This document shows, one piece after another, positions 33,479 to 55,581 of a stretch of DNA of 64,000 nucleotides (positions within the stretch are counted from its first letter, which is position 1; the number at the start of each line of letters is the position of its first letter). Made by a program: the position numbers and the translations under genes. The DNA lies in contig NZ_JAQUWN010000013.1 in the NCBI RefSeq assembly GCF_028692895.1, positions 1-64,000 on the forward strand, written 5' to 3'. The notes beneath the pieces are model-generated. The model was not told where the DNA came from, ran no database searches, and saw only the letters and a program-made list of their open reading frames with translations. Source of the DNA: Pseudodesulfovibrio sp. (lineage in GTDB: Bacteria > Desulfobacterota > Desulfovibrionia > Desulfovibrionales > Desulfovibrionaceae).

Positions 33479-33579
33479 GGGGCGTGATCCGATCCCGGTC
33501 GGGATCTGTCCGCTCCGCCTTTTCTTTCCTCTTCGACCGTGGTACATCTCCCGCCACCAAAACCGATGGAGAATCAGGA

Positions 33580-34506
33580 ATGAAGAAACTGCTCATCGCC
33601 GTGTGCTGCGTCCTGCTCTGGGCCACTTCCGTCCGGGCGGAGAAGGTGCGCATCCGTTTCGGCGTGCTGCCGGTGCTGGATACCCTGCCCATGGAAGTGG
33701 CCGTGCGCGACGGCCTGTTCGCCGCCCATGGGCTGGATGTGGAACTGGTCCGCTTCACCTCGGCCCTGGAGCGCGACACCGCCATGCAGGCGGGCCAGAT
33801 CGACGGCTATTTCGGCGACCTGGTGGCCACCCACCTGCTCATCGACCGGGGCGTGCCCATGTACATCGCCCTGACCTCCTGGAGGACCTCGCCCGGCCAT
33901 CCCATGTTCGGCATCGCCCTGTCCCCGGCCAATAAGGACAAGAACACCTCCCAACTGCGCGGCGCCAAGCTGGGCCTCTCCAAGTCCACCATCATGGAAT
34001 TCCTGGGCGACAGGATGGAGCGCAACCTCGGCGTTGCGCCCGACTATTTCTCCCGCATGGAAGTGAAGAAGATGCCCATCCGCTTCCAAATGCTCATGTC
34101 CGACCAGTTGGACGCGGCCCTGCTGCCCGAGCCGCTGCTCTCCCTGGCCCGGCTCCAGGGGGGCGGGGTTCTGGCCATCGCCGACAATCTCGACCTGCCG
34201 CTGACCGTGCTCTGCCTGCACCGCCGCTATTTCAGGGACGGCTCCAAGACCTATCTGGCCTTTGTCGCCGCTTACGGCCAGGCCGTGAGCCGGTTGGCCA
34301 CCACGCCCGAAAGGTACCGTCCGCTCATGGCCGAGACCTGCCGCATTCCCAAACCGCTGGTGGCCAAGTTCCCGGTTTACCCCTATCCGGCCCCGGCCCT
34401 GCCCACCCCGGCGGAGCTGGCCGACGTGCAGCAGTGGATGATCGCCAAGGGGCTGCTCAAGGCGCGCATCCCCGACGCACAGATTCTGCCCCCGGTCGTT
34501 CCCTAG
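33580..34506 (+). CDS. NitT/TauT-type ABC transporter substrate-binding protein
   Basis: A 308-residue protein with a signal peptide (MKKLLIAVCCVLLWATSVRA). The mature part begins EKVRIRFGVLPVLDTLPMEV and contains AMQAGQIDGYFGDL and QLRGAKLGLSKSTIMEFL, typical of family binding proteins for sulfonates, nitrate, thiamine precursors or aromatic compounds. GGAGAATCAGGA precedes the ATG at 33580. The ATPase gene begins on the next base after its stop. The ligand is not identifiable. Confidence 0.9.
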   Translation: MKKLLIAVCCVLLWATSVRAEKVRIRFGVLPVLDTLPMEVAVRDGLFAAHGLDVELVRFTSALERDTAMQAGQIDGYFGDLVATHLLIDRGVPMYIALTSWRTSPGHPMFGIALSPANKDKNTSQLRGAKLGLSKSTIMEFLGDRMERNLGVAPDYFSRMEVKKMPIRFQMLMSDQLDAALLPEPLLSLARLQGGGVLAIADNLDLPLTVLCLHRRYFRDGSKTYLAFVAAYGQAVSRLATTPERYRPLMAETCRIPKPLVAKFPVYPYPAPALPTPAELADVQQWMIAKGLLKARIPDAQILPPVVP

Positions 34507-35241
34507 ATGCTGACCGCCGAGAACCTCGGAAAATCCTACGGCGGCCAGGCCGTCCTGGAAGACGTCTCCTTCTCCCTCGGGGAGGAGGAGACGCTGGCCA
34601 TCGTCGGCCCGTCTGGCTGCGGCAAGACCACGCTGCTCTACCTGCTGAGCGGGCTGGTCAGGCCGGACGCGGGCCGCATCCTGGTGGACGGCGCGCCCGT
34701 GGCCGGTCCGGGCCCGGACATTTCCATCATCCTCCAGGACTACGGCCTGCTGCCCTGGCGCACCGTGGTGGACAACGTGGCCCTGGGCCTCAAGGTGCGC
34801 GGCGTTGGCCGGGCGGAGCGGCTCGACAGGGCCCGCCGCCAACTGGCCGAGCTGGGCATAGCGGGCCGCGACGCCGACTATCCGGCCAACCTGAGCGGCG
34901 GCGAGCAGCAGCGGGTGGCCATCGCCCGCGCTTTTGTCACCCGGCCCCGGCTGATGCTCCTGGACGAGCCCTTTTCCTCTCTCGACGCCCTGACCCGCGA
35001 GCGGTTGCAGTACGCGCTGCTCGACGCCTGGAAGCAGCGGCGCGTGCCCTTCGTCCTGGTGACCCACTCCCTGGAGGAGGCCGTGGTTCTGGGCAAGCGG
35101 ATCATGGTCATGTCCGACCGCCCGGCGCGGCCCGTGCGCGTCTTCGACAACCCCGGCTTCGGCAGCCGCTCCATCCTCGACACCGAGGCGTGCTTCAACC
35201 TCCTGCGCGAGCTGCGGAGCACCGTGGAGGACCTTTGGTGA
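34507..35241 (+). CDS. NitT/TauT-type ABC transporter ATP-binding protein
   Basis: A 244-residue ATPase with Walker A GPSGCGKTTLLYLLSG, Q-loop LQDYGLLPW, signature LSGGEQQRVAIARAF, Walker B LMLLDEPFSSLD and H-loop VTHSLEEAV. The Q-loop ending GLLPW is characteristic of nitrate/sulfonate-type importers. Its ATG directly follows the binding-protein stop, and its TGA overlaps the GTG start of the permease. Confidence 0.93.
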   Translation: MLTAENLGKSYGGQAVLEDVSFSLGEEETLAIVGPSGCGKTTLLYLLSGLVRPDAGRILVDGAPVAGPGPDISIILQDYGLLPWRTVVDNVALGLKVRGVGRAERLDRARRQLAELGIAGRDADYPANLSGGEQQRVAIARAFVTRPRLMLLDEPFSSLDALTRERLQYALLDAWKQRRVPFVLVTHSLEEAVVLGKRIMVMSDRPARPVRVFDNPGFGSRSILDTEACFNLLRELRSTVEDLW

Positions 35242-35996
35242 ACCTGAAGCCGCTTTTGCGCTACGCCCTGGTGGTCCTGGTCCTGGGCCTGATCTGGAAG
35301 GGGGCGGCCACGGCCCTGGGCGGGATCATCCTGCCCGCGCCCGAGGACGCGGCCCGAGCCTTTTTCTCGGCCATGGCCACGGCGGACTTCTGGGCCCATT
35401 TCGCCACCAGCGCCTGGCGGGTGGTGGCGGCCATGGCCCTGGCCTGGCTGACCGCCTTTCCCCTCGGCCTGCTCATGGGCAGCGTGCCGCGCGTCGACGC
35501 GCTCCTGGCCCCGTTCATCTTCCTGACCTATCCCATCCCGAAGATCGTGCTCCTGCCGGTCTTCCTGCTCCTCTTCGGCCTGGGGGACACGGCCAAGATC
35601 GCCATGATCGCCCTGATCCTGGGATATCAGATCCTGGTGACCACCCGCGACGGGGTGAAGTCCATCCATCCCAAGTATTTCGATTCCGTACGCTCCCTGG
35701 GCGGCTCGCGGCGGCACGTCCTGCGCGAGGTCCTGCTGCCCGCGGCGTTGCCCCACGGGTTCACGGCGCTGAGGCTGGGCACGGGCGTGTCCGTGGCCGT
35801 GCTCTTCTTTGTGGAATCCTTTGCCACCACGAGGGGCCTGGGCTATATGATCATGGACGCCTGGGGGGCCATGGACTACCTGACCATGTTCTCCGGCATC
35901 CTGGGCATGTCCCTGCTCGGCGCGGCCCTTTACGAGATCGCCAACTTCCTGGAACGTCGCGCCTGCCGCTGGATGTTCCTGCGCAACAAAGGATAG
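35238..35996 (+). CDS. NitT/TauT-type ABC transporter permease
   Basis: A 252-residue membrane protein of about six helices with the EAA-loop region (KSIHPKYFDSVRSLGGSRRHVLREVLLPAALP) that contacts the ATPase. The start is a GTG overlapping the ATPase stop codon (GTGA). It completes a binding protein-ATPase-permease set. Its stop is followed after 12 bases by phoH, so the transporter and phoH-ybeY genes may form one operon. Confidence 0.92.
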   Translation: MNLKPLLRYALVVLVLGLIWKGAATALGGIILPAPEDAARAFFSAMATADFWAHFATSAWRVVAAMALAWLTAFPLGLLMGSVPRVDALLAPFIFLTYPIPKIVLLPVFLLLFGLGDTAKIAMIALILGYQILVTTRDGVKSIHPKYFDSVRSLGGSRRHVLREVLLPAALPHGFTALRLGTGVSVAVLFFVESFATTRGLGYMIMDAWGAMDYLTMFSGILGMSLLGAALYEIANFLERRACRWMFLRNKG

Positions 35997-36008
35997 GAGG
36001 GTTCCGCT

Positions 36009-36977
36009 CTGCCCGTCATCAAGCTCGAATTCAACGACGCCCGGCTGGCCAACCGCCTCTTCGGCCCGCAGAACCAGCACCTCAAGCTCCTGGGCGAGCG
36101 CCTCGGCGCGACCGTCGAGAGCCGGGGCAACGCCGTGACCATCTCGGCCCCCGAGGGCGAGGAGGACCGGGCCGACCTGGCCGCCCAGGTACTGGGCCAG
36201 CTCTACGCCATGCTCCGCTCGGGCAAGAAGCTCTATCCCCAGGACGTGGATTTCGCCTGCCGCATCCTGGAGCGCCAGCCCACCGCCGACCTGGGCGAGG
36301 TCTTCAAGGAGGACGTGTACGCCGCGTCCGGCAAGCGCACGGTCTCGCCCAAGTCCCTGAACCAGCGCCACTACCTGGACGCCATTCGCGAGCACGACCT
36401 GACTTTCGGCATCGGCCCGGCGGGCACGGGCAAGACCTACCTGGCCGTGGCCATGGCCGTGGGCGCGCTGATCCGGCGCGAGGTCAAGCGCATCGTGCTG
36501 ACCCGCCCGGCCGTGGAGGCCGGGGAGAAGCTCGGGTTCCTGCCCGGCGACCTGGCCGAGAAGATCAACCCGTACCTGCGCCCGCTCTACGACGCCCTGC
36601 ACGACATGCTCGATTTCGCTAAGGTGCAGGAATACCAGGAAAACGGGGTCATCGAGGTGGCCCCGCTGGCCTTCATGCGCGGCCGCACCCTGAACGACGC
36701 CTTCATCATCCTGGACGAGGCCCAGAACACCACGCCCGAGCAGATGAAGATGTTCCTGACCCGGCTGGGCTTCGGCTCGCGCGCCGTGGTCACGGGCGAC
36801 GTCACCCAGGTGGACCTGCCGAGCAACGCCCGCTCCGGCCTGCTCCACGCCCGAGAGATCCTGGCCGGGGTCAAGGGCGTGCGCTTCGTCACCTTCGACG
36901 AGCAGGACGTGGTCCGCCACCCCCTGGTGGGTCGGATCGTCCGCGCCTACGACAAATTCGAGAACGGCGAGCGGTAG
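36009..36977 (+). CDS. phoH: PhoH family ATPase, apparent CTG start
   Basis: A 322-residue cytoplasmic P-loop ATPase. The N-terminal nucleic-acid-binding-like region ([19 protein letters not shown]) precedes Walker [13 protein letters not shown] and Walker [21 protein letters not shown] (35995-36000) is eight bases before CTG at 36009 and no ATG, GTG or TTG is in frame between the stop at 35994 and a GTG at 36135, which would delete 42 residues of the conserved N-terminus. So a CTG start is the best call. PhoH and YbeY genes are adjacent in very many bacteria and are linked to RNA metabolism and ribosome maturation. Confidence 0.88.
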
Positions 36978-36979
36978 GC

Positions 36980-37513
36980 ATGGAAAACACGGTCCGCATA
37001 TTGCGCGAGACGCGGCTCGACCCGCGGTTTCCCCTGTCCCGGCGCGAACTGGCGGGCCTGTGCGCCCTCATCCTGGACTCGCTAGGCCTGGAGGGGATGC
37101 CGGTGACGGTCAAGCTGGTGGACGACCGGGAGATCGCCCGGCTGAACCACGAGTTCCTGGGCTGCGAAGGCCCCACCAACGTCCTGAGTTTCCCGGCCGA
37201 GGAGCCGGATGAGGAAGAGTTTTTGTCCGAAGAAGCGGGCGACGCCGACGAAGCGGACGACATGGATGGCATGGACGAGGCGGACAACGAGGACGGCGAA
37301 CCGGCCGGCCTGGGCGAGCTGGCCCTGTCCGTGGACGCCCTGGCCCGCGAGACCGACCTCTACGGCCAGCCGCCGGTGGCGCACCTGGCGCGGCTGCTGG
37401 CCCACGGGTTCCTGCACCTGGCCGGGTACGACCACGGCGAGGCCATGTACGACCTGACCGACGCGGCCGTGGACCGAGCCCTGCTGGAATATCCGGAGAC
37501 CGAGGAGCGCTGA
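36980..37513 (+). CDS. ybeY: Endoribonuclease YbeY
   Basis: A 177-residue RNase used in 16S rRNA 3' maturation and ribosome quality control. The zinc triad is the H-x3-H-x5-H motif in [15 protein letters not shown] (His142, His146, His152), and [11 protein letters not shown] is the conserved upstream strand. Residues about 74-107 form an unusual acidic low-complexity insertion ([20 protein letters not shown] and onward) between two core strands. It starts two bases after the phoH stop and ends overlapping the next gene in TGATG. Confidence 0.92.
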
Positions 37514-39084
37514 TGCCGACCCGCAACGGCCTGGTAGGCAGGCAACTGTACCGCATCCTTTTCTACGGCGTGATATTCACGGTGCTGGCCGTGGGCGTGC
37601 TGGCCTTCTGGGGCGTGCGCGAGATTCGCCGCGACGCCGCCGTGCTGGCCGTGGAGAACTCGGCGCGCGGCCTGTCGGGCGCGGTGACCGTCCTGGTCAA
37701 CGCGGTGACCAGCGCCAACGACGAGATCGACCTCAAGACCCTGCGTTCCCTCAGTCCCGAGTCCCTGCGCCGGACTCTGTCCGCCATGCTCAAGCGATAC
37801 CCCAACCTGGCCTCGGTCATGGTCTCGGACGGCAAGGGGCTGCGCTACATGCTCACCCGCCAGCCCGACGGGGCCATGGAGGCCTTGCCCGGCCGGGGCG
37901 ACGACCCCTCCACGCGGTGGAATTTCGTCAAACCGGACGGGGAGCTGGAGCCCCGCGACGCCGCGCCCGACTTCAACCGCAAGGAGATGGACGGGGCCCT
38001 GGCCCAGGAGCTGGCGGCGCTCCAGCCCGGCCAGGTCCGCTGGCGCAGCGCCTCCCGCTTCCACAAGGCGGGCGAGTCCTGGCTCACGGCCTCCAGCCTG
38101 GTGGAGAGCGACGGCGAGCACTACCTGATGTCCTACGTCTTTCCCATCAACGCCGTGGCCAACCAGTTGGAAGGGGCGGAGAAGGGCGGCGCGGAACGGA
38201 TTTTCCTTTACTGGACCAACGGCCGGGTCCTGCCCATCTCCGGCCTGGGCGTGACCCCGGAGGACGGCGACGGCATCTCCCGGGCCTACGACGCCGGGGC
38301 CGTGCCCGACCCGGTGGTGGCCGAGGCCACCCGGCGGCTCGCCTCGGGCAGGGCGGCCGAGGGCAAACCCTTCGCCTACGCCGTGAACGGCGAGGCGTGG
38401 TGGAGCTACGTCCTGCCACTGACCGTGTTCGGCGACACCATGGCGCTGGGCGTGGCCGTGCCCAGGAAGAACATCGTTTCGGCCCTGACCAGCGACAGTT
38501 TCCTGATTTTTTTCGGCGGCTTCCTGGCCCTGCTGGCGGCTGCCGCCCTGGTGGTCCTGCATCGCAACAAGGCGCGCATCGAGGCCATGGGCCATCGCCT
38601 GCGCGTCGCGCGTACGGCCCAGGACGTGCTCCGCCTCATCGCCGAGGGGGAGGGCGCCGGGCTGGAGTTCAAGCAGACCCTGCGCTTCAACCTCAAGGCC
38701 GGGAAGAACGGCCGCGAGATCGAGCACGCCAGCCTCAAGACCGTGGCCGGGTTCATGAACTCCGACGGCGGGACCCTGCTGGTGGGCGTGGCCGACGATG
38801 GCGTGGTCACCGGGTTCGAGGAGGACAAATTCGAGAGCCCGGACAAGGCCCTCCTGCATTTCAACAACCTGTTCAACCAGTGCATCGGCACGGAGTTCGC
38901 CCGCTATCTGGACACGGCCGTCATCGAGGTCCAGGGCAAGTCCGTGCTGCGCGCCCACTGTCTGCCCGCCAAGGCCCCGGCCTTCCTCCGGGACGGGAAG
39001 ACCGAGGAATTCTACGTCCGGAGCGGACCGGCCAGCCGCCAGCTCTCGCTCGTCCAGTTCTACGAGTGGCTCAAGAAGCACTAG
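37513..39084 (+). CDS. Two-TM sensor-like protein with C-terminal AlbA_2 (Schlafen-type) domain
   Basis: A 523-residue protein with a TM helix at about 13-34, an extracytoplasmic domain (about 35-325) of a length and layout like Cache sensor domains, a second TM helix (FLIFFGGFLALLAAAALVVL) near 330-350, and a cytoplasmic domain from about 375 with LEFKQTLRFNL and FMNSDGGTLLVGVADDG, the AlbA_2/Schlafen-AAA-like motifs. No kinase, cyclase or methyl-accepting domain is present. It overlaps ybeY, so it probably shares expression with phoH-ybeY. I do not know its function. The domain order suggests an external signal controlling a nucleic-acid- or nucleotide-binding output. Confidence 0.8.
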   Translation: MPTRNGLVGRQLYRILFYGVIFTVLAVGVLAFWGVREIRRDAAVLAVENSARGLSGAVTVLVNAVTSANDEIDLKTLRSLSPESLRRTLSAMLKRYPNLASVMVSDGKGLRYMLTRQPDGAMEALPGRGDDPSTRWNFVKPDGELEPRDAAPDFNRKEMDGALAQELAALQPGQVRWRSASRFHKAGESWLTASSLVESDGEHYLMSYVFPINAVANQLEGAEKGGAERIFLYWTNGRVLPISGLGVTPEDGDGISRAYDAGAVPDPVVAEATRRLASGRAAEGKPFAYAVNGEAWWSYVLPLTVFGDTMALGVAVPRKNIVSALTSDSFLIFFGGFLALLAAAALVVLHRNKARIEAMGHRLRVARTAQDVLRLIAEGEGAGLEFKQTLRFNLKAGKNGREIEHASLKTVAGFMNSDGGTLLVGVADDGVVTGFEEDKFESPDKALLHFNNLFNQCIGTEFARYLDTAVIEVQGKSVLRAHCLPAKAPAFLRDGKTEEFYVRSGPASRQLSLVQFYEWLKKH

Positions 39085-39216
39085 CCCCCCCCGAGGCGCG
39101 CCCCGGGCCGGTTTTCCGGGATTTGGGAACCCAAAGCCCTTTACAATGCCGTCATAATGGGCCAGACTCCATCTCTTTCCATGAATATAGGCAATTGATG
39201 ATGGAGTAACCGTACG

Positions 39217-40113
39217 ATGCCCAAGCATTTCTTGACCATTCTGGACATCCCCAGGGATGAGGTTCGGCAGGTGCTGCTGCGCGCCAAGGAGATGAAGGAC
39301 AACAAGGTCCGCACCGATCTCCTGGCCGGAAAGACCCTGCTGCTGATTTTTGAAAAGGCGTCCACCAGGACCCGCGTTTCCTTCGAGGTCGGCGTCCGAC
39401 AGCTCGGCGGCGACCCGGTGTTCGTCTCCTCGCGCGACTCCCAGCTCGGCCGGAACGAGCCGCTCAGGGACACCGCGCGCGTCCTTTCGCGATACGCGGA
39501 CGGCCTCATCGTGCGCACCTTCGGCCAGCAGAAGCTCGACACCCTGGTCGAGTTCGGCGACATCCCGGTGGTCAACGCCCTTACCGACGAATACCATCCC
39601 TGCCAGGTCATGGCCGACATGCTGACCATGTTCGAGCGCACCCCGGACCTGTCGAAGTGCAAGGTGGCCTGGGTCGGCGACGGCAACAACATGGCCCATT
39701 CGTTCATCAACGCCTCGGCCGCCTTCGGCTTCGAGCTGGCCCTGGCCTGCCCCGAGGGGTACGACCCGGACCCGGAAATCCTGGACAAGGCCGTGAACCT
39801 GGGCGCCAAGGTGACCCTGACCCGCGACCCGGCCGTGGCCGTGTCCGGCGCGCACTACGTCAACACCGACGTATGGGCGTCCATGGGCCAGGAGGCCGAG
39901 CAGAAGAAGCGCGAGGCCGCCTTCGCCGGATTCATGGTGGACGAGGCGCTCATGGCCAAGGGCGCGGACGCGAAGTTCATGCACTGCCTGCCGGTCCACC
40001 GGGGCGAGGAAGTGAGCGAGGCCGTCTTCGAGGGCCCGGCCTCCATCGTCTGGGACCAGGCCGAGAACCGGCTCCATGCGCAAAAGGCCATTCTCGAATG
40101 GATTTATAAATAA
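39217..40113 (+). CDS. argF: Ornithine carbamoyltransferase
   Basis: A 298-residue enzyme that condenses ornithine and carbamoyl phosphate to citrulline. Carbamoyl-phosphate site EKASTRTRVSFE, the ornithine-side HCLPVHRGEEV and the DEYHPCQVMAD segment are conserved. It begins the arginine cluster argF-argG-argH. The promoter region upstream has TTTACA near 39140 and an ARG-box-like TGAATATA near 39182. Confidence 0.95.
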   Translation: MPKHFLTILDIPRDEVRQVLLRAKEMKDNKVRTDLLAGKTLLLIFEKASTRTRVSFEVGVRQLGGDPVFVSSRDSQLGRNEPLRDTARVLSRYADGLIVRTFGQQKLDTLVEFGDIPVVNALTDEYHPCQVMADMLTMFERTPDLSKCKVAWVGDGNNMAHSFINASAAFGFELALACPEGYDPDPEILDKAVNLGAKVTLTRDPAVAVSGAHYVNTDVWASMGQEAEQKKREAAFAGFMVDEALMAKGADAKFMHCLPVHRGEEVSEAVFEGPASIVWDQAENRLHAQKAILEWIYK

Positions 40114-40132
40114 TTCAATCGGATATAATTCA
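40110..40132. promoter_or_regulatory. Possible ArgR half-sites between argF and argG
   Basis: ATAATTCA occurs twice (40110-40117 and 40125-40132), 15 bases apart. On the minus strand each reads TGAATTAT, like half of an ARG box (TGAATWWWWATTCA). They are direct rather than inverted repeats, so this is a weak candidate. Confidence 0.25.
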
Positions 40133-40146
40133 GAGGAATTAATCAG

Positions 40147-41376
40147 ATGAGCAAGATAGAAAAAGTCGTTCTCGCCTATTCCGGCGGTCTGGACACGTCC
40201 ATCATTCTCAAGTGGCTCAAGCTCAACTACGATTGCGAGGTCATCACCATGACGGCCGACCTCGGCCAGGGCGAGGAGATGGACGGCATCGAGGACAAGG
40301 CCCTCAAGACCGGCGCTTCCAAGGCCTACGTGGAGGACCTGCGCGAGGAGTTCGTGCGCGACTATGTCTTCCCCATGTTTCGGGCCAACGCCCTGTACGA
40401 GGGGCGCTACCTGCTCGGCACGTCCATCGCCCGGCCGCTGATCTCCAAGCGCATGGTCGAGATCGCCGAGATGGAAGGGGCCCAGGCCGTGGCCCACGGC
40501 GCGACCGGCAAGGGCAATGACCAGGTCCGGTTCGAGCTGGCCACCATGGCCCTCAACCCGCGCCTCACCACCATCGCCCCCTGGCGCGAGTGGAACCTCA
40601 AGTCCCGCACCGACCTGATCAATTTCGCCCAGGAGAACGGCATCCCGGTCCCGGTGAGCCGCAAGAAGCCCTGGTCCATCGACGCCAACCTGCTGCACAC
40701 CTCCTTTGAGGGCGGCGAGCTGGAGGACCCGTGGAACGCCCCCGGCCCCGACTGCCACCGCACCATCGTCCCGCTGGAGCAGGCCCCGGACGAGGCCGAG
40801 GAGATCACCATCGACTTCGAGGCGGGCGATCCCATCGCCGTCAACTCCGTCAAGTATTCCCCGGCCGCGCTGCTGGCCAAGCTCAACGAGCTGGGCGGCA
40901 AGCACGGCGTCGGACGTATCGACATGGTCGAGAACCGTTTCGTGGGCATGAAGTCCCGCGGCATGTACGAGACCCCCGGCGGGACCATCCTGGCCGCCGC
41001 CCACCGCGACCTGGAAGGGCTGTGCATGGACCGCGAGATGATGCACCTGCGCGACAGCCTCATTCCCCGCTACGCCGAAATGGTGTACAACGGGTACTGG
41101 TTCTCCCCGGAGCGGGAGGCGCTCCAGGCCATGATCGACAAGTCCCAGGAGAAGATCACCGGCACCGTGCGCCTCAAGCTGTACAAGGGCAACGCCGTGC
41201 CGCTGGGCCGCAAGTCGCCGTTCTCCCTGTACAACCCCGAGCTTGCCACCTTCGAGGAGGACTACGTGTACGACCAGGCCGACGCCGCCGGCTTCATCAA
41301 GCTGGTGGGCCTGAGGCTCAAGGGCCGCATGCAGCAGTCCAAGTGGGGCGGCAAGGAAAGCGAAACCAACGAGTAG
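40147..41376 (+). CDS. argG: Argininosuccinate synthase
   Basis: A 409-residue enzyme joining citrulline and aspartate at the expense of ATP. The N-terminal ATP pyrophosphatase P-loop [17 protein letters not shown], the [15 protein letters not shown] segment and the [10 protein letters not shown] motif are standard. GAGGAATTAATCAG precedes the ATG. It lies 33 bases after argF and six bases before argH. Confidence 0.96.
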
Positions 41377-41382
41377 CTGAAG

Positions 41383-42777
41383 ATGGCCGAGAAGAAGATG
41401 TGGGGCGGGCGGTTCGCAGAAGGAACCGCCGCGTCCATGGAGGCGTATTCCGAGTCCGTGTCCTTTGACCGGGCCCTTTACGCCGAGGACATCCGGGGCT
41501 CCCAGGCCCATGCGCGCATGCTGGCGAAGCAGGGCTTCCTCACCGACGGGGAGGCCCGCACGCTTTGCGACGGCCTGGACAAGGTCAGGGCCGAGATCGA
41601 GGCGGGCGAGTTCGTCTGGAAGGTCGAGCTGGAAGACGTGCACATGAACATCGAGTCCCGGCTCACCGAGCTGGTCGGCCCCATCGGCGGCAAGCTGCAC
41701 ACCGCGCGCAGCCGCAACGACCAGGTGGCCCTGGACTTCCGGCTGCACGTCGCCGCCCGGCTGGCCGACTGGCAGGCGCGCCTGGCCGCCCTCGTCGAGA
41801 TCTACGTGGACCGGGCGGACGGGCAGCGGGAAACCCTGCTGCCGGGCTGCACCCATTTCCAGCCCGCCCAGCCCGTCAGCCTCGCCCACCATCTCCTGGC
41901 CTACTGCCAGATGTTCCGGCGCGACTACGAGCGCGTGGCCGACTGCATGAAGCGGGTGCGCGTCATGCCGCTCGGGGCCGCCGCCCTGGCCGGGACCACC
42001 CATCCGGTGAGCCCCCGCGCCGTGGCCGACGACCTGGGCGTGGAGAGGATTTTCGCCAACTCCATGGACGCCGTGTCCGACCGCGACTTCGTGCTGGAGG
42101 CGGTCTTCGCGGGCAGCCTGGTCATGACCCACCTCTCGCGGATGTGCGAGGAGATCATCATTTGGGCCAACCCCAATTTCGGCTATGTGAAGCTGCCGGA
42201 CCACTATTCCACCGGCTCCTCCATCATGCCCCAGAAGAAGAACCCGGACTCCTGCGAGCTGATGCGCGGCAAGACCGGCCGCGTGGTCGGCGACCTGATG
42301 TCGCTCCTGGTCCTGCTCAAGGGACTGCCCATGACCTACAACCGCGACCTCCAGGAGGACAAGGAGCCCTTCTTCGACGCGGACCGGACGGTCTGCGCCT
42401 CGCTGGGCATCATGGCCGGGCTTCTCTCCGAGCTGACCTTCGTGCCGGAGAAGATGCTGGCCACGGTGCGGCGCGGGTTCCTCAACGCCACCGAGCTGGC
42501 CGACTACCTGGCCGCCAAGGGCGTTCCCTTCCGCGAGGCGCACCACATCACCGGCGCGGCCGTGGCCTTTGCCGAGGGCAGGGGCGTCGGCCTGGAGGAT
42601 TTGAGCCTGGAGGAACTGCGGCGGTTCTCCGCCGGCATCGGCGAGGATGTCTACGCCGTTCTCGACTACGAGGCGTGCGTCCGGCGGCGGACTTCCGCCG
42701 GCGGCACCGGGCCCGATTCCGTGGACGGCCAGATCGCCGAACTCAAGGGCTGGCTGGCCTCTGTTCGCGAGGCGTGA
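41383..42777 (+). CDS. argH: Argininosuccinate lyase
   Basis: A 464-residue fumarase/aspartase-superfamily enzyme that splits argininosuccinate to arginine and fumarate. The signature [15 protein letters not shown] holds the catalytic serine loop; [16 protein letters not shown] is the other conserved block. It is the last gene of the arginine cluster, six bases after argG. Confidence 0.96.
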
Positions 42778-42950
42778 GCCGGTTTGGCGAGGCATCGGCT
42801 GTTTTTTGCCGTGCATGACTTGATTTTTCGCGGAAGCGCATTAGGTTAGCATATCGGACGGGTTGAAAATTCATCCGCCGCCATTCCCGTCGCGCGGCGC
42901 CTTCAAGAGGGAATCCGGGTCCACAGCCCGGACGCCCGGAGGACTATTCT

Positions 42951-55463: not shown

Positions 55464-55469
55464 GCAAAA

Positions 55470-55555
55470 AGCTAGGGGGGCCCTACGGGGCTGAGATGGG
55501 TTTTTTCAACCCGACCCTTTGAACCTGATGCGGGTAATACTGCCGTAGGGAAGCT
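55470..55555 (+). ncRNA. TPP riboswitch (THI element)
   Basis: The aptamer contains the hallmark CCCTACGGGGCTGAGATGGG and, further on, GACCCTTTGAACCTGATGCG followed by GGTAATACTGCCGTAGGGA, with AGCT ends pairing. TPP binding should repress the downstream thi genes. A terminator hairpin follows 27 bases later, giving a transcription-termination platform. Confidence 0.96.
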
Positions 55556-55581
55556 GCACAACGTCTGTTTTTTCATGTCGT

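Follow-up and report, generated by a model that had tools for sequence, protein, structure and literature searches.

A membrane receptor gene between ybeY and argF

The window, by which we mean the whole 64,000-nucleotide stretch of Pseudodesulfovibrio sp. DNA analysed here, contains a gene for a putative membrane receptor directly downstream of phoH and ybeY. The receptor gene, its parts and its neighbours are as follows.

36135-36977, plus strand: phoH, context (Pfam PF02562, E 4e-98)
36980-37513, plus strand: ybeY, context; its stop overlaps the receptor start (Pfam PF02130, E 2.1e-23; sequence)
37513-39084, plus strand: receptor gene, 523 amino acids, arranged as TM - dCache - TM - linker - SLFN_AlbA_2 (reading frame, Pfam, hydropathy, AlphaFold2 model)
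37555-37611, plus strand: transmembrane (TM) helix 1, residues 15-33, which in the model runs on into the first dCache helix (hydropathy, model)
37612-38496, plus strand: extracytoplasmic dCache sensor, residues 34-328 (AlphaFold2 models, Foldseek, VIA)
38503-38559, plus strand: TM helix 2, residues 331-349, followed by the positively charged flank HRNKAR (hydropathy, model)
38650-39045, plus strand: SLFN_AlbA_2 output domain, residues 380-511 (Pfam E 2e-15; profile match to SLFN14 and 5yd0)
38650-38652, plus strand: E380, aligned with SLFN13 E205 (profile alignment)
38665-38667, plus strand: E385 in an EFK motif, aligned with SLFN13 E210 (profile alignment)
38794-38796, plus strand: D428, aligned with SLFN13 D248 (profile alignment)
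39217-40113, plus strand: argF, downstream context (Pfam PF00185/PF02729)

Position and homology give argF, argG, argH, ftsH as the order of the downstream genes, with argF and ftsH confirmed by Pfam. The receptor reading frame comprises 523 codons, begins with ATG and shares a single base with the ybeY stop codon (TGATG); the first-pass annotation of this locus had noticed the overlap with ybeY. It is not a chance reading frame, because full-length orthologues devoid of internal stops are present in 30 Pseudodesulfovibrio genomes, with 44-66% identity outside the window genome. A promoter and terminator scan of positions 35900-39400 returned nothing above chance.

The computed topology comprises two strong TM segments with about 295 residues between them, and the positively charged residues behind the second one fit a C-terminus that probably lies in the cytoplasm. 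A short linker leads from there to the only domain that Pfam recognizes in the protein, SLFN_AlbA_2 (PF04326; 57.8 bits, cut-off 25.3), while NCBIfam yielded no match above its cut-off. This layout bears out the first-pass annotation, which had proposed two TM helices around an external domain of sensor size and an AlbA_2 domain in the output position. The receptor is the sole AlbA_2 protein detected in the genome from which the window derives.

Several further features of the window were recorded. A 1818-amino-acid open frame on the minus strand (37360-42816) lies antisense to the receptor gene, argF, argG and argH and looks like a G+C-driven artefact. On the plus strand, genes for an NMT1-like binding protein and an ABC ATPase and a permease-like reading frame stand in tandem at 33484-35996, possibly encoding an ABC transporter for a thiamine precursor or a similar compound. 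A TPP riboswitch (Rfam RF00059, 77.6 bits) is found at 55464-55568 (plus strand).

A dCache sensor and a Schlafen-type output domain

An AlphaFold2 model of the receptor, computed from a 15-row alignment, reached a mean pLDDT of 79.7 and contains a long helix (residues 9-71) that runs from the first TM segment into the sensor. The best Foldseek matches of this model are dCache ligand-binding domains, with MkcA (9heh, E 2.2e-9) accompanied by PctD, PctA, Tlp3, TlpQ, Mlp24 and others, and VIA superposition gave a Z score of 16.8 and an rmsd of 3.5 over 247 residues. Folded alone, the sensor was modelled with a pLDDT of 77 and a pTM of 0.75 (Foldseek E 4.2e-10; Z scores of 15-16, up to 16.3); over both models, VIA Z scores against many dCache structures lay at 15-17. 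In the predicted structure, two Cache modules and a long N-terminal helix fill the region between the two TM segments. The Pfam Cache families, including dCache_1 (PF02743), did not match the window protein; among 17 receptor relatives, dCache_1 gave one weak match (E 0.0013), and in a relative with a different output it scored 24.6 bits against a cut-off of 45. Judged from these models, the sensor is a divergent dCache domain that is recognizable by its fold only, and such a predicted fold suggests small molecules as ligands. The core R-x-W-Y of the amino-acid dCache motif is absent from the receptor in a simple pattern test, which is not a structural one, and we rejected the presence of this motif.

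A single-sequence search of the PDB for a solved close relative of the receptor found nothing, whereas a profile search with 19 AlbA_2 relatives as the query did find Schlafen proteins. The computed homology extends to SLFN14 (E 2.2e-9), chain 5yd0 (E 2.8e-7) and CbCash (E 5e-5), and further to SLFN11, SLFN12 and SLFN5; 5yd0 is the structure of SLFN13 (PMC10567574), and the PDB table names it Schlafen 8. Cleavage of tRNA by SLFN13 depends on E205, E210 and D248 (PMC5862951), and the three-carboxylate triad characteristic of Schlafen-type endoribonucleases is found in the receptor sequence as E380, E385 and D428. All three residues are invariant in the 34 relatives first aligned, in the 30 orthologues of the genus and at 23 of 27 loci outside it, the four exceptions being three proteins with outputs other than AlbA_2 and one frameshifted gene. 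Four basic residues, K387, R391, K409 and R503, are likewise invariant in the aligned relatives and the genus orthologues. The conserved triad lends substance to the suggestion in the first-pass annotation that the protein might act on RNA, and RNA cleavage by its AlbA_2 domain is likely on the basis of sequence. Most AlbA_2 domains, including those of regulator-like proteins not known to be nucleases, possess this triad, so that its conservation is no proof of catalysis. Each receptor chain carries one Schlafen lobe.

Outside the receptor group, the nearest AlbA_2 sequences (about 33-40% identity) are C-terminal modules of GmrSD-type, BrxL and Eco57I-type restriction proteins; two small membrane-anchored AlbA_2 proteins, one of them with a bPH_2 domain, are also near. 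The typical AlbA_2 protein of our phylum sample carries the domain N-terminally and lacks TM segments, and a C-terminal AlbA_2 domain behind TM segments occurred there only in the receptor group (four receptor-type proteins). Likewise, the AlbA_2 domain of the window protein follows two TM segments and ends the chain, and the protein does not have the soluble, N-terminal layout of regulators. In proteins of other Desulfovibrionaceae (L017-L021), a C-terminal AlbA_2 domain is preceded by an N-terminal part of another kind, which appears to be soluble.

Conserved placement in Pseudodesulfovibrio and relatives in other families

Within Pseudodesulfovibrio, 30 of 36 genomes possess a full-length receptor gene, and in all 30 it lies directly 3' of ybeY, with start codons that range from 13 nt ahead of the ybeY stop to 17 nt behind it. 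Four near-complete genomes of the genus are devoid of it; in at least two of these (G116 and G130), argF directly follows ybeY, as expected of a clean loss. The absences sit on separate branches of the phoH+ybeY tree, with which the receptor gene tree has 17 of 27 splits in common. Because of the fixed position in every orthologue, the scattered absences and the common splits, the gene was, judged from these sequences, probably present in the ancestor of the genus, inherited vertically and lost several times. It is dispensable yet keeps its place, which sets it apart from typical defence genes. Two side observations concern the region behind ybeY: in some Pseudodesulfovibrio genomes, a gene for a Peripla_BP_6 binding protein lies between ybeY (or the receptor gene) and argF (L085:4071-5228; L082:1668-2825), and in five genomes the gap in front of argF measures about 1350 bases.

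The computed placement in the genus is operon-like and suggests co-expression of the receptor with ybeY. The first-pass annotation had gone further, proposing a functional connection to phoH-ybeY to be examined by a survey of co-occurrence, and had named random genomic placement in other species as one of the findings that would speak against its view. The association proved invariant inside Pseudodesulfovibrio and broke down outside it, both in other Desulfovibrionaceae and in other families of the Desulfobacterota, where the neighbours are unrelated, which agrees in part with the random placement that the annotation had named. None of the loci with this architecture that we inspected outside the genus adjoins phoH-ybeY, and we rejected a general functional tie to these genes. 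Since the same architecture stands beside unrelated genes elsewhere, the adjacency to ybeY suggests co-expression in a single genus and reveals little about what the receptor acts on.

Our profile survey covered Desulfobacterota genomes, and 27 of 395 genomes were positive for the sensor outside Pseudodesulfovibrio, a count that includes the window genome. The scan of genome contigs used six short peptides, so that full-length relatives outside the Desulfobacterota may exist unseen. We inspected 19 loci besides the window: 15 encode intact dCache-TM-AlbA_2 proteins (in two of which the called frame does not resolve the first TM segment), one has the same architecture with a frameshift, and three have other outputs, namely SpoIIE phosphatase and guanylate cyclase, with one cyclase that is weak and truncated. 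As SpoIIE phosphatase and guanylate cyclase domains are also joined to this sensor family, AlbA_2 fills an interchangeable output slot. Eight further Desulfovibrionaceae loci have the receptor architecture, which in total spans at least eight families, at least seven of them beyond the Desulfovibrionaceae. Searches for copies on phages found no match, and those on plasmids found AlbA_2-only matches and no full-length copy.

The neighbours outside the genus include NhaA, another Na+/H+ exchanger, histidine kinases, a chemoreceptor, a solute-binding protein, a type II secretion ATPase, a chaperonin and metabolic genes, and do not indicate RNA metabolism. In one family (L074:1176-4759; L070:1264-4843), the receptor gene follows genes for NhaA and an Na_H_Exchanger-TrkA_N antiporter, a hint that ions or pH may be the signal in that family. 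The L070 copy is interrupted by a frameshift right at the E..EFK motif of its AlbA_2 domain (L070:5900-6000), a position at which L074 is intact, and this reflects either an assembly error or a broken gene. The separate sensor and AlbA_2 reading frames of L070 were considered as a natural two-gene form and rejected, given the frameshift beside the triad and the fused counterpart in L074.

Proposed ligand-controlled RNA cleavage and its alternatives

The reading that we favour, and to which we would assign an even chance, is that the protein is a complete receptor by itself, with a periplasmic ligand governing a dimeric ribonuclease of the Schlafen type. We infer ligand gating, dimerisation, catalysis and an RNA target, and the chain of events would run as follows. 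The periplasmic dCache domain would bind a small molecule, and the signal would travel through the two TM helices and the short helical linker, without a HAMP domain, to the cytoplasmic AlbA_2 domain. Cache receptors usually act as dimers. SLFN13 is a pseudo-dimer, whose two lobes clamp RNA between them (PMC5862951), and for these two reasons a dimeric ribonuclease is the simplest model. The AlbA_2 domains would probably pair, so that a receptor homodimer forms one RNA-clamping unit. Ligand binding would alter the geometry of the dimer and thereby switch the Mg-dependent, three-carboxylate RNase on or off; tRNA, rRNA or mRNA are candidate substrates.

A different outcome, distinctly less probable and still worth serious consideration, is that AlbA_2 binds nucleic acid but leaves it uncut, which would make the protein a membrane-tethered one-component regulator of transcription, or a device for sequestering RNA at the membrane, under the control of the dCache ligand. 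Many AlbA_2 proteins of the phylum are soluble with the domain at the N-terminus, a layout usually annotated as that of transcriptional regulators. The invariant basic residues would suit binding, and SLFN5 retains the carboxylates and binds tRNA without cleaving it (PMC8789055). However, the invariance of three acidic residues across very divergent relatives goes beyond any obvious need of binding, and Pfam detects no HTH or other DNA-recognition domain in the receptor.

Improbable in our judgement is a role in phage defence, in which the receptor would be a Schlafen RNase that senses the envelope and sets off abortive infection. A preprint, as cited in PMC12839542, reports bacterial Schlafens in anti-phage defence, and the GmrSD, BrxL and Eco57I-type restriction proteins have the nearest AlbA_2 domains outside the receptor group. 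These are cytoplasmic defence proteins without a sensor or TM segments. The single chromosomal site, the vertical descent and the presence in most genomes of the genus argue against such a role, as do the metabolic, transport or signalling genes that surround the receptor at the loci inspected outside the genus, the lack of phage and full-length plasmid copies in our searches, and a sensor fold that suggests small-molecule ligands. PADLOC did not match the window protein, and 7 of 17 members matched its pAgo model only, probably through the Schlafen-like part of that model. We hence see for this receptor neither a defence profile or neighbourhood nor the patchy distribution of defence genes. 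Slightly less probable still is that AlbA_2 acts on a nucleotide or partner protein instead of RNA, with the signal passing through some messenger: the phosphatase and cyclase found in the output slot of relatives make any enzymatic output possible, but the closest relatives of solved structure are endonucleases of tRNA or rRNA or bind RNA.

The favoured model of a ligand-controlled ribonuclease can be set against known systems. With the dCache receptors, be they chemoreceptors (PctA, Tlp3, MkcA), histidine kinases or diguanylate cyclases, the protein shares the TM - dCache - TM topology and the fold; it differs from them in that its output is AlbA_2 and not a kinase, MCP, GGDEF/EAL, cyclase or phosphatase domain, and in having no HAMP. 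The Schlafen RNases SLFN13, SLFN11 and SLFN14 have the same AlbA_2/Schlafen lobe with its E-E-D triad, but fuse two lobes where the receptor has one per chain; the receptor is a membrane protein, and its cleavage activity is a prediction. In IRE1, the sensor and the RNase lie on opposite sides of the membrane and the signal is transferred within one protein, the same arrangement as proposed here, although the folds of both parts are unrelated, no homology exists and the receptor has no kinase part. The PUCH complex of C. elegans (TOFU-1/TOFU-2/SLFL-3 or -4) likewise has single Schlafen-like domains per chain and one membrane-anchored subunit, but consists of three different subunits and is anchored to mitochondria by one TM helix, with no sensor domain described there (PMC10567574). 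The Cache census of 2016 lists kinases, chemoreceptors, c-di-GMP enzymes, cyclases, phosphatases, Ser/Thr kinases, ion channels and transcription factors as outputs, and no Schlafen or RNase class (PMC4822843). The open literature that we searched yielded no account of a dCache-Schlafen receptor, and InterPro-type databases may already list this domain pair. The receptor is a new combination of known parts and not a new kind of machine.

Extended to the whole group, our proposal becomes more tentative and falls somewhat short of an even chance: a receptor family of the Desulfobacterota through which an extracellular small molecule would directly control a cytoplasmic Schlafen ribonuclease, a counterpart of IRE1 in outline and an RNA-cleaving class of Cache outputs. 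Phosphorylation, cyclic nucleotides, chemotaxis arrays and transcription factors are the means by which known Cache receptors act. An AlbA_2 output that cuts RNA would let bacteria pass in a single step from a molecule outside the cell to RNA cleavage within it. For studies of mechanism, the family provides a simple Schlafen with a single lobe, in which the residues to be mutated are defined. Should the proposal hold true, Schlafen nucleases, with their roles in antiviral defence and piRNA processing, would also serve in ordinary signalling from the environment.
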